The position numbers and the translations under genes were made by a program. A stretch of 58,608 nucleotides of DNA from an uncultured Ignavibacteriales bacterium (GTDB lineage Bacteria; Bacteroidota; Ignavibacteria; Ignavibacteriales; Ignavibacteriaceae). Of this stretch, positions 13,599 to 16,970 are shown in pieces. The DNA lies in NCBI GenBank assembly GCA_903929035.1, contig CAIYTF010000160.1, positions 10,001 to 68,608 on the forward strand. The letters run 5' to 3'. Numbering within the stretch: the first letter of the stretch is position 1; each line of letters begins with the position of its first letter. The notes below the pieces were generated by a model. The model searched no databases. It saw only the letters and a program-made list of their open reading frames with translations, and had not been told where the DNA came from.

Positions 13599-14648
13599 AT
13601 GAACCGCTTATTATCATACATTACTATTTTATTATTTATCACTGCAATATGCTCAAAACTCTTCGCGCAAAACAAAGACACGATTACAGTTGCTTTCTGG
13701 AACACTGAAAACCTGTTCGATATATACGATGATAAAGAAAAGAACGACAATGATTTTCTTCCGACATCAAAAAAACAGTGGACTATAGAAAGATATACCG
13801 CGAAACTCCAACACCTCGCGCGCGTTATTAAAGATATGAACGCCGGACGCGGTCCCGATGTTCTGGGATTAGCGGAAGTGGAAAACAAAAAAGTTCTGGA
13901 AGATTTGTTAGAGCAGAATCTTGCAGGTATGAACTACCGGATTGTTCATTACAATTCCCCCGATAAACGCGGGATTAGTGTCGCGCTCATATTCAAGTCA
14001 AATTTATTAGAGTTACTTGATTCATCTGCTGATACTGTTCATCTCGAGAGGAATCATACAACACGGTTAATTCTTCACACGGTGCTAATGACCAAGAGCA
14101 AAGACACCTTAAATTTTTTCGTCAATCATTGGCCATCGCGTGTTGGAGGAATGTATGAATCCGAATTACATCGTGTATCAGCCGCTCAAACAGCACGCAA
14201 CAGCGTGGATAAACTTTTACAAATCAATCCTTCGGCGGCAATAGTTATTATGGGCGACTTCAATGATGAACCTGATAACAAATCAATTTCTGAAACACTT
14301 GGAGCAGAACATTTGATATGCGGCAAAGTTAATACTAAATATACCCTGCACAATCTTGCTTGGGTAAGAAAAAATAATGGTGAAGGAACACTTTATTATC
14401 GCGGTCAATGGAATATGCTCGACCAAATTATTGTTTCGACCCAGCTGCTAAAATCCAAAAATAAATCAGCTTATGCTTTATGCGAAAGTTTTGAAATATT
14501 TAAGCCTGATTATATGGTGAAAAAGGATAGGAAACATACAGGTGCTCCATTTCCAACGTATGCAGGAAAAAAATATTTAGGCGGATATAGCGATCATTTC
14601 CCTGTAAACGCGAAAATTATTATCGGGAACGCGAAAGGCAAAAAATGA
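13599..14648 (+). CDS. Secreted endonuclease/exonuclease/phosphatase-fold protein
   Basis: 349 residues with a Sec signal peptide (residues 1-24, hydrophobic ITILLFITAICS, ending FAQ). The EEP catalytic set is complete: Asn/Glu in FWNTENLF, Glu in LAEVEN, His in VNHWPSR, Asp/Asn in MGDFNDEP and the terminal SDHFPV. This fold includes secreted nucleases and phosphodiesterases that use a divalent metal. The signal peptide and WNTENLFD motif resemble the extracellular nuclease-like branch common in Bacteroidota. Its last four bases overlap the start of the SDR gene (ATGA), indicating one operon. Confidence 0.9.
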   Translation: MNRLLSYITILLFITAICSKLFAQNKDTITVAFWNTENLFDIYDDKEKNDNDFLPTSKKQWTIERYTAKLQHLARVIKDMNAGRGPDVLGLAEVENKKVLEDLLEQNLAGMNYRIVHYNSPDKRGISVALIFKSNLLELLDSSADTVHLERNHTTRLILHTVLMTKSKDTLNFFVNHWPSRVGGMYESELHRVSAAQTARNSVDKLLQINPSAAIVIMGDFNDEPDNKSISETLGAEHLICGKVNTKYTLHNLAWVRKNNGEGTLYYRGQWNMLDQIIVSTQLLKSKNKSAYALCESFEIFKPDYMVKKDRKHTGAPFPTYAGKKYLGGYSDHFPVNAKIIIGNAKGKK

Positions 14649-15337
14649 AGAAGAAAGTTTTAGTTTTCGGTGCTTCAGGTGTGCTTGGACGAGGTGTTTG
14701 CGAGTCGCTTTTAAAAAATAATTATGACGAGTATTTCTTTTTCGATCGAAATGAAACGATATTCTCATCGAATAAATTAATACACTACGTACCAATTACT
14801 GACTTGACCAACGCGGGAAATGTACGAACAGCATTAGAACGCGTGCCGGTGTTCAAAGATGATAAAGTATTCCTATTCAGCACTATTGGCGGCTTATTCG
14901 GCGGCAATCCCGCGTGGGATACTGAACCGGGGGCAATGCAAAAAATGTTTCAGATTAACTTCGACACCAACTATTTTATTTTGCAGCAATTCGCGTTGAT
15001 AGTGAAACGTTGCTCGGGCGGCGGTGCCTGTTTTACATCAGCGTTTACTTCGCTCTATCCTGAAGCGGGGAAAACTGAATATGGCGCGGCTAAAGCAGCT
15101 CTTAATTATCTCGTGCAGTCTGCTTCATTAGAAGGACGCGAAATAAAATTGAGCGTGAATGCTATTGCTCCATTCATAATAGATACACCGGCAAACAAAG
15201 TATGGCTGTCAGAATCCGAAATTAACACCGAAACTATTATGAAGCCCAAAGAGATTGGCGAACTCGTGCATTCTCTATTTTCACATTATCGCTTTGTCTC
15301 CGGTAATGTTATTAAATTAGGATATCGATTTCCATAG
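14645..15337 (+). CDS. Short-chain dehydrogenase/reductase
   Basis: 230 residues. The nucleotide-binding motif is GASGVLGRG near the N-terminus, and the active-site pair YGAAKAA follows a serine-rich strand, FTSAFTSLYPEAG. The C-terminal PFIIDTPANK matches the usual PG-T segment. It should bind NAD(P)H and oxidise or reduce a small carbonyl or alcohol; the substrate is unknown. Overlap of 4 bases with the upstream secreted phosphatase/nuclease gene implies translational coupling. Its stop codon is only 9 bases from the MITE-like insertion that begins at 15347. Confidence 0.85.
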   Translation: MKKKVLVFGASGVLGRGVCESLLKNNYDEYFFFDRNETIFSSNKLIHYVPITDLTNAGNVRTALERVPVFKDDKVFLFSTIGGLFGGNPAWDTEPGAMQKMFQINFDTNYFILQQFALIVKRCSGGGACFTSAFTSLYPEAGKTEYGAAKAALNYLVQSASLEGREIKLSVNAIAPFIIDTPANKVWLSESEINTETIMKPKEIGELVHSLFSHYRFVSGNVIKLGYRFP

Positions 15338-15346
15338 GCAGATAGG

Positions 15347-15687
15347 TAGGGTTTCCTGAAAAAGTCAAAAGGTTTATTCGCCGTTCCTAAATGGCACCCA
15401 CTTACCTGCCAACTATTCATCGGCGCGGACAAATAGGCACAAAAGTATTGATTTGCTCCATAAAAATGCCTAAAAATAGCATTTTGATAGCTAATAGAGT
15501 TTAAACTTCAAATTCCGGTTGATTTAGGTTATTGAATCGGATTCCTTTGCATTAAATTGCTTTTTAGCAAGTGCACGGAAAAACGCGGATTATGCTCAAA
15601 AAGCGTGCACCTATAAATTATCTAAATCCATTTGAACCGCGTTATTATTGTACAATATCGCTCTTTTGACTTTTTCAGGAAACCCTA
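15347..15687. mobile_element. 341-bp MITE-like element with perfect 25-bp inverted ends
   Basis: Bases 15347-15371 (starting TAGGGTTTCC) are the exact reverse complement of 15663-15687. The interval has no coding frame. Both outer ends are TA, as expected if a TA target was duplicated in the manner of IS630/mariner-type elements. No transposase is present, so it would be mobilised in trans. The right end lies inside a methyltransferase gene and supplies its stop codon. The terminal symmetry is directly visible; the family assignment is inference. Confidence 0.8.
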
Positions 15688-16005
15688 ACTATTAAACTCT
15701 TTCAAATACAAATCAAGTTCGTGAATGCTCGGTGTAGATGTCTTAGCAGTTGTTATTAATCTGGCTAATGGATTAAGATCAGTTCCCACTGAATTAATAT
15801 TTCGTAGATTTGCTTCAACAAACGAGGTACCTGTCCCGCAATAGGGGTCGAAAAGCAACTCCGCTTTATCGCCATATTTGTCAATGATTCTTCCTGCAAC
15901 CTGTGGTATCATCATAGCCGGATTGGAATGATAGCAATGAGTAAACATCTTGGTATTAGATGCTCTAAAGTCCCAAGAGTAATCGGTATATTTTTTATCT
16001 ATCAT
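15685..16005 (-). pseudogene. N-terminal remnant of a DNA methyltransferase
   Basis: 106 residues remain. FDPYCGTGTSFVEA (residues 52-65) is the S-adenosylmethionine motif I of an amino-methylating DNA methyltransferase, followed by GTDLNPLARLI. The catalytic DPPY/NPPY motif and the target-recognition part, which should follow, are missing. Reading stops at TAG at 15687-15685, made by the inverted end of the 341-bp element. No continuation of the protein is seen beyond the element, where the SDR gene begins. The fragment cannot be a complete enzyme. It begins 21 bases after a 59-residue frame on the same strand. Confidence 0.8.
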
Positions 16006-16026: not shown

Positions 16027-16206
16027 CTAAATTTTTGCTGAACTCATAATGTTGTAAAGTTGATTAAAGACTTCCTTCCAAGCATTTTCTTTGTTCTCTG
16101 CTGAATCAATAAATGAATCTATCCTGCTTATTGTTGGCGGTAAGTATTCCTTTGAGATAATCTGTTTTAATACTTTCAGTTCATTCTTATCAAAAGGATA
16201 GACCAT
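16027..16206 (-). CDS. 59-residue small protein upstream of the methyltransferase remnant
   Basis: Starts ATG at 16206 and ends TAG at 16027. The product is mostly charged and helical, beginning MVYPFDKNELKVLKQII and containing SRIDSFIDSAENKENAWKEV. Upstream ACGGAG provides a plausible Shine-Dalgarno 7-9 bases before the ATG. It is not recognised. Its place immediately ahead of the methyltransferase gene suggests it belonged to the same restriction-modification operon, perhaps a small accessory or regulatory protein, but no helix-turn-helix is evident. Coding status rests on codon content, the ribosome binding site and operon position. Confidence 0.5.
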   Translation of the reverse strand: MVYPFDKNELKVLKQIISKEYLPPTISRIDSFIDSAENKENAWKEVFNQLYNIMSSAKI

Positions 16207-16300
16207 ATAGGCTCCGTAAAATGATTAATTGAATTATGTTTAATGTGCAAAATACAAAAATCATTACTCTTACCAAACCGACATCAAGCTGAAAGGTATG

Positions 16301-16326: not shown

Positions 16327-16446
16327 TATACCCGTGCTTTATTTAAATTTAACCTTTCCATATTTTTTACTCGGTAGATTTATTCAACTTTTTATCGGTT
16401 TGGGATAAAATGATGCCAAAAGCGGGGGGTAATTTGATGCAAATAC

Positions 16447-16499: not shown

Positions 16500-16970
16500 T
16501 TATTGCCCAGTATCTCCTAAAGCCTTTGCTTTTTCAGAATTTTTCTTGTTTTTTTCGTCTCTGTTGGCTTCTCTTGCTTCTCCAATGGATTTCTTTTGCT
16601 CATTGGTTGCAGCATTATAATCAACCAACTCGATGATTGCCATCTCGGCTGCATCACCGCGTCTTCTGCCCAAACGGACAACTCGCGTGTAACCGCCTTT
16701 TCTGTCACCAACGGTCACTGCAATATTAGTAAATAACTCTTTTACTACCGGTTTGTCTTTCAAATCATCCATTATCAGACGCTTGCTGTTCAAGTCGCCC
16801 TTTATTGCTTTAGTAATGATAGGATCAACAAAAGTACGGAGTTCTTTAGCCTTTGCCAATGTTGTTGTAATTCTTTTATGTTCTAAAAGTGATGTAGTAA
16901 GGTTACGCAGCATTGCACGCTTATGCGATGCTGTTACTCCTAATTTACTTCCTTTAACGCCATGCTTCAT
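16500..16970 (-). CDS. rplQ: 50S ribosomal protein bL17
   Basis: 156 residues, opening MKHGVKGSKLGVTASHKRAM with the conserved RRRGDAAEMAIIELV near residue 100. The core of about 120 residues is followed by a charged Lys/Glu-rich tail of some 35 residues, longer than the E. coli protein. bL17 binds 23S rRNA near the exit-tunnel side. Last gene of the alpha group, 19 bases after rpoA and just before the terminator. Confidence 0.97.
   Translation of the reverse strand: MKHGVKGSKLGVTASHKRAMLRNLTTSLLEHKRITTTLAKAKELRTFVDPIITKAIKGDLNSKRLIMDDLKDKPVVKELFTNIAVTVGDRKGGYTRVVRLGRRRGDAAEMAIIELVDYNAATNEQKKSIGEAREANRDEKNKKNSEKAKALGDTGQ

Follow-up and report, generated by a model that had tools for sequence, protein, structure and literature searches.

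The locus between rplQ and a short-chain dehydrogenase gene

The window (the whole stretch of DNA analysed, 58,608 nucleotides) carries a MITE-type element between an intact gene for a short-chain dehydrogenase (SDR) and the remnants of two restriction-modification (R-M) genes, beyond which lies the ribosomal operon ending in rplQ. The features are the following:

14645-15337, plus strand: intact SDR gene, 230 aa, with its stop 9 bp from the TA of the MITE
15343-15348, plus strand: left flank of the MITE, TAGGTA, matching the consensus TANNTA of the repeat family
15347-15687: MITE-type element, noncoding, 341 bp including a TA on each side (337 bp between the TAs)
15347-15371, plus strand: left terminal inverted repeat, TA-GGGTTTCCTGAAAAAGTCAAAAG
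15663-15687, minus strand: right terminal inverted repeat, identical to the left one when read on this strand
15686-15691, plus strand: right flank of the MITE, TAACTA, also matching TANNTA
15685-16005, minus strand: 106-aa N-terminal piece of a type II DNA methyltransferase, ending in TAG (15687-15685)
16027-16206, minus strand: 59-aa N-terminal remnant of a BsaWI-like restriction endonuclease, with 68% amino acid identity to residues 3-59 of the enzyme encoded on C98, elsewhere in the assembly
16500-16970, minus strand: rplQ, last gene of the ribosomal operon

A preliminary description of this DNA had reported a 341-bp element with perfect 25-bp inverted ends, and this was confirmed: the arms show 0 mismatches over 25 bp and are 97% complementary when extended to 30 bp. 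The element is short, lacks a transposase frame, and is bounded by terminal inverted repeats, which are the properties expected of a MITE. As RNA it folds into a single long hairpin (z = -7.2), and it had no match in Rfam. The stop codon of the methyltransferase fragment is formed at the junction, as had also been recognized from the terminal TA of the element; the flanking TA is followed by G, the first base of the inverted repeat. Copies of the element at C36:24588 and C162:13556 also give a stop to adjoining frames (464 and 410 aa, respectively), so stop donation is not special to the site in the window.

The rplQ gene is followed by a terminator at 16480-16451. The same terminator is followed in a genome of the same genus by a gene for a YsxC/EngB-type GTPase (named by eye from its GTPase motifs), and no methyltransferase or endonuclease relic was found near rplQ in 29 relatives. 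In relatives, exbB/exbD-like or other genes come after the SDR gene, and rplQ never does; the pair that it forms with an endonuclease/exonuclease gene has different genes behind it there. Gene order thus identifies the locus as a rearrangement breakpoint relative to the genus, with the MITE marking the junction of DNA segments of different origins. The 3' end of the SDR gene falls at the same residue as in relatives, and the gene was rejected as the damaged partner on this ground. An imperfect 21-bp inverted repeat (16273-16293 and 16383-16403) lies between the rplQ terminator and the R-M relic.

Remnants of a type II R-M unit and the intact pair on C98

The methyltransferase fragment matched the PADLOC model MTase_II (PDLC03322; E = 3e-32) at positions 17-121 of 446. 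It corresponds to the N-terminal quarter of a methyltransferase of about 418 aa, of which the first 105 codons were kept. The preliminary description called the gene "beheaded," but on the minus strand, where it is encoded, the head was kept and the tail lost. Its reading of the motifs was accurate: motif I (FDPYCGTGT) is present in the fragment, and the catalytic TSPPY, which complete relatives carry about 190 residues later, is missing. A functional type II methyltransferase has both motif I and (T/S/N/D)PPY, so that the copy in the window does not qualify as one. We compared it with 80 relatives from many phyla, and the complete ones are about 410-470 aa long, have (T/S/N/D)PPY, and never stop near residue 106. 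A naturally short methyltransferase was rejected for this reason, and the truncation inferred earlier, against which relatives ending at the same residue would have spoken, is upheld.

The C-terminal three quarters of the methyltransferase are absent beyond the MITE. When the missing 314 residues were searched for in the source genome, the only matches were the gene on C98 and, on C22, a protein of 24% identity. C98 encodes an intact methyltransferase paralogue of 418 aa, 90% identical to the fragment at the amino acid level, and directly upstream of it a 254-aa endonuclease matching PF18643 (RE_BsaWI; 52.1 bits versus a cutoff of 26.2; E = 7e-14). The same restriction gene lies directly upstream of the methyltransferase in 6 of the 80 relatives; no sequence match to the intact C98 endonuclease was found in the PDB. 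BsaWI itself, a member of the CCGG family, cleaves W/CCGGW (PMC4652773), and the pair on C98 is a predicted BsaWI-like (CCGG-family) R-M system. C98 resembles BsaWI-type systems (PF18643; PMC4652773) in having an endonuclease with a type II methyltransferase directly behind it, whereas the window differs from them, with an endonuclease stub of 59 aa and a methyltransferase stub of 106 aa.

The DNA similarity between the two places begins on the methyltransferase side at the MITE, runs to the start of the gene, and resumes after a gap with the first 59 codons of the endonuclease. About 570 bp, measured on C98, were deleted in the window between the endonuclease remnant and the methyltransferase start. 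The codons of the fragment and of its C98 paralogue show 43 synonymous and 11 nonsynonymous differences, and 49 of 60 base changes are at third positions. Because the codon differences are mostly silent, both copies were constrained during most of the time since they separated. Two changes in the fragment nevertheless affect conserved residues: Y28N, where all 80 relatives have Y, and L62F, adjacent to motif I, where L is found in 78 of 80.

The preliminary description concluded that methylation was lost and that any cognate restriction enzyme must be gone too. The first conclusion is not supported: the same assembly holds an intact methyltransferase, 90% identical, beside an intact BsaWI-like gene, and given this pair, methylation of this specificity was probably not lost genome-wide. 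The second was right locally, where a 59-aa remnant is left, but the reason given for it is not established, as the intact pair on C98 probably keeps the specificity in the cell. Correcting this point matters, as the statement that methylation was lost would mislead readers of the methylome of this genome. The assembly comprises 3.36 Mb in 222 contigs with an estimated contamination of 2.2%, so C98 could come from a different organism or replicon, and unassembled DNA could hold the part of the methyltransferase that is missing. The G+C content of C98 (41.7% versus 40.1%) and that of the R-M genes, alike at both places (about 35%), fit its belonging to the same genome, a similarity that does not amount to proof. 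In C98:8000-26000, the intact pair has on one side a type I-like N6 methyltransferase together with specificity subunits and on the other very large helicase/methylase proteins of 2,105 and 1,644 aa, in surroundings that resemble a mobile element or a phage-like island.

The MITE family and the search for a partner transposase

The preliminary description proposed a search for other copies of the inverted end, and these proved abundant. The 23-nt end had 47 matches in the source genome at up to 3 mismatches, versus 0 for a reversed-pattern control, and BLAST placed the element at 71 sites (including end-to-end matches on both strands); with such counts, the recurrence of the ends is not due to chance. 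The element thus occurs in multiple dispersed copies, as MITEs do. Complete copies are 82-94% identical to the one in the window, the nearest being 90-94% identical, and many others are truncated (often at one end), internally deleted, or reduced to ends only. A TA lies directly outside (positions -2 and -1) 36 of 41 distinct ends at loci of the source genome, and a second TA is found 4 bp further out (-6 and -5) in 32 of the 41, other offsets giving 0 to 5. This TANN-TA-GGG pattern reflects either a 10-bp insertion preference or a part of the MITE end itself. The target-site duplication is TA and only 2 bp long. Matching the flanks to paralogous DNA revealed similarities near the copies on C100, C22, and C91 but no true empty site that would prove the duplication.

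The family seems confined to this genome. A search of 60 further genomes of the same bacterial family, one from the same genus among them, did not find the element, nor did searches of plasmids and viral contigs. Its ends, searched in 395 genomes of the phylum, gave besides the source genome just two single matches with one mismatch, neither having a second end within 1.5 kb. We regard it as a degraded, species-specific repeat family of dozens of copies, a new family of a familiar sort. RUP of Streptococcus pneumoniae (PMC2229807) is likewise short and noncoding, with inverted ends, a terminal TA, and many copies; its transcript also forms a hairpin, and its insertion can break open reading frames. 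The window element differs from RUP in length (341 versus 107 bp), in its 25-bp ends (GGGTTTCCTGAAAAAGTC), in the lack of a match in the 60 other genomes, and in that no insertion sequence with matching ends was found.

Identical arms had been taken as a sign of recent movement. This argument is weak, since even the nearest copies reach only 90-94% identity and conserved arms are a feature of the repeat family as a whole, the copy on C93 also having 23-nt ends without a mismatch. Set against eight other copies, the window copy has about 6 private substitutions, and its 5.5% difference from the consensus is at the low end of the family range of 5.5-11%. It belongs to the less diverged members of an old family rather than to a recent burst.

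The same divergence bears on the assembly itself. A repeat present in many copies in a fragmented assembly of 222 contigs is a place where the SDR-MITE-methyltransferase junction could have been created as a chimera. We consider this very unlikely: the interior of the window copy is at least 6% different from every other copy, so that most k-mers through it are unique, and two distinct lesions, together with the substitutions at two conserved positions, point to real decay.

The partner transposase was sought in the source genome among four families (DDE_3, DDE_Tnp_1, DDE_Tnp_1_6, and DDE_Tnp_1_2), and none with the ends of the MITE family (TAGGGTTTCCTGAAAAAGTC) was found. IS630-type transposase genes are present on C11, C188, and C38, and the MITE end is absent around them at up to 6 mismatches within the stretches examined. 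The matches to DDE_Tnp_1 (C165 and C216) and a DDE_Tnp_1_2 remnant (C178) are also without MITE ends, and DDE_Tnp_1_6 had no match. A Pfam scan of 53 open reading frames near MITE ends disclosed no autonomous partner among the 25 most frequent of 89 families. The TA duplication suggests the IS630/mariner class, as had been supposed, but the ends are not shared with any IS630-family transposase found here; the partner element may have died out or may be missing from the assembly. At C11:16799-17254, a two-frame IS630-type insertion sequence, whose ends are unlike those of the MITE family, interrupts a gene for a repeat-rich secreted protein.

Several other copies have neighbors worth recording. 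The copy at C93:23997-24261 is separated by 27-38 nt from the ends of two genes; one encodes a Vsr-type nicking endonuclease and is next to a type II restriction enzyme. Further copies are near genes for a D12-class adenine methyltransferase (C222) and a C5-cytosine methyltransferase (C93). A copy with a truncated end at C22:1854-2196 overlaps a 141-aa frame, resembling ribosomal protein L19, at its 3' end.

How the junction may have arisen

We propose, with a probability of roughly 0.78, that the window holds the relic of a decayed, redundant type II R-M unit with a MITE at the break. A horizontally acquired unit (a BsaWI-like endonuclease gene followed by the methyltransferase gene) would have lodged downstream of the rplQ operon. 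Its endonuclease gene underwent the internal deletion of about 570 bp, and its methyltransferase gene is cut down to the first 105 codons, with the MITE exactly at the break. A cell that loses the gene pair of a type II system is killed if restriction enzyme persists (PMC10273834). Here the loss may have been tolerated, the penalty being presumably lifted because the local enzyme was dead and a second methyltransferase was able to keep the site methylated.

The simplest account of the break, a recent and clean MITE insertion that alone ended the methyltransferase and abolished methylation in the genome, would explain why the arms are perfect and why a stop forms at the junction. A simple insertion should have left the C-terminal three quarters of the gene on the other side of the MITE, and they are neither there nor elsewhere in the assembly, save in the C98 paralogue. 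With the rest of the methyltransferase gone and an intact, unrelated SDR gene stopping 9 bp beyond the MITE, a clean insertion cannot be the whole story; the intact paralogue and the 90-94% identity of the nearest copies also speak against it, and we regard it as extremely improbable. What stands of the earlier interpretation is the MITE type of the element, its many copies, the TA at its ends, the truncated methyltransferase, and the broken local endonuclease, whereas the clean recent insertion, the lost methylation, and the IS630 partner are not supported.

Three routes could account for both the loss and the foreign neighbor. The most likely of them, although we hold it only tentatively and at slightly less than even odds as a step in its own right, is recombination between two MITEs. 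The methyltransferase gene would have been interrupted by one copy, while a second copy had landed next to the SDR gene; by recombining, the two would have removed or moved the intervening DNA and left a single MITE with mismatched neighbors. Both ends of the MITE are intact and both flanks are TANNTA, as expected of real insertion junctions. No mosaic pattern was detected in the window copy, which shares derived bases with the copy C36b along its length, and no reciprocal product carrying the displaced neighbors was found in the stretches examined.

The second route starts from a MITE insertion in the methyltransferase gene, after which a one-sided deletion from or near the MITE end took the C-terminal part together with the DNA up to the SDR gene. 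The missing part does start exactly at the MITE, and truncation at one end is common among the other copies of the family. However, neither arm and neither TA is damaged here, and TAGGTA on the left side conforms to TANNTA, a pattern that a random deletion end would rarely restore; this route is unlikely.

The third route, to which we give somewhat less credence again, reverses the order of events: the relic would have been already truncated and joined to the 3' flank of the SDR gene when the MITE landed by chance at the junction (GATAGG-TA-ACTATT). The normal TA duplication with TANNTA on both sides would follow naturally, and the two changes at conserved residues, together with the deletion in the restriction gene, represent decay independent of the MITE. 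Such an insertion must nevertheless have hit the junction within a couple of bases, as the similarity of the methyltransferase to C98 reaches the MITE.

Beyond this locus, recombination among species-specific MITEs with an unusual 10-bp TANN-TA-NNTA preference might reshape the genome and pare redundant R-M genes near core operons, an extension that we find distinctly doubtful. The decay at the locus is the ordinary decay of a redundant defense system. Its value is that of a small, clear case of a redundant R-M unit dying, in which the endonuclease was gutted, the methyltransferase was shortened, a MITE sits at the scar, and an intact relative was kept. The R and M pseudogenes of Helicobacter muridarum (PMC10273834) are similar in that a horizontally acquired pair was reduced to remnants in a genome with other systems; in contrast to that case, the break studied here carries a MITE, and the assembly retains an intact paralogous pair.
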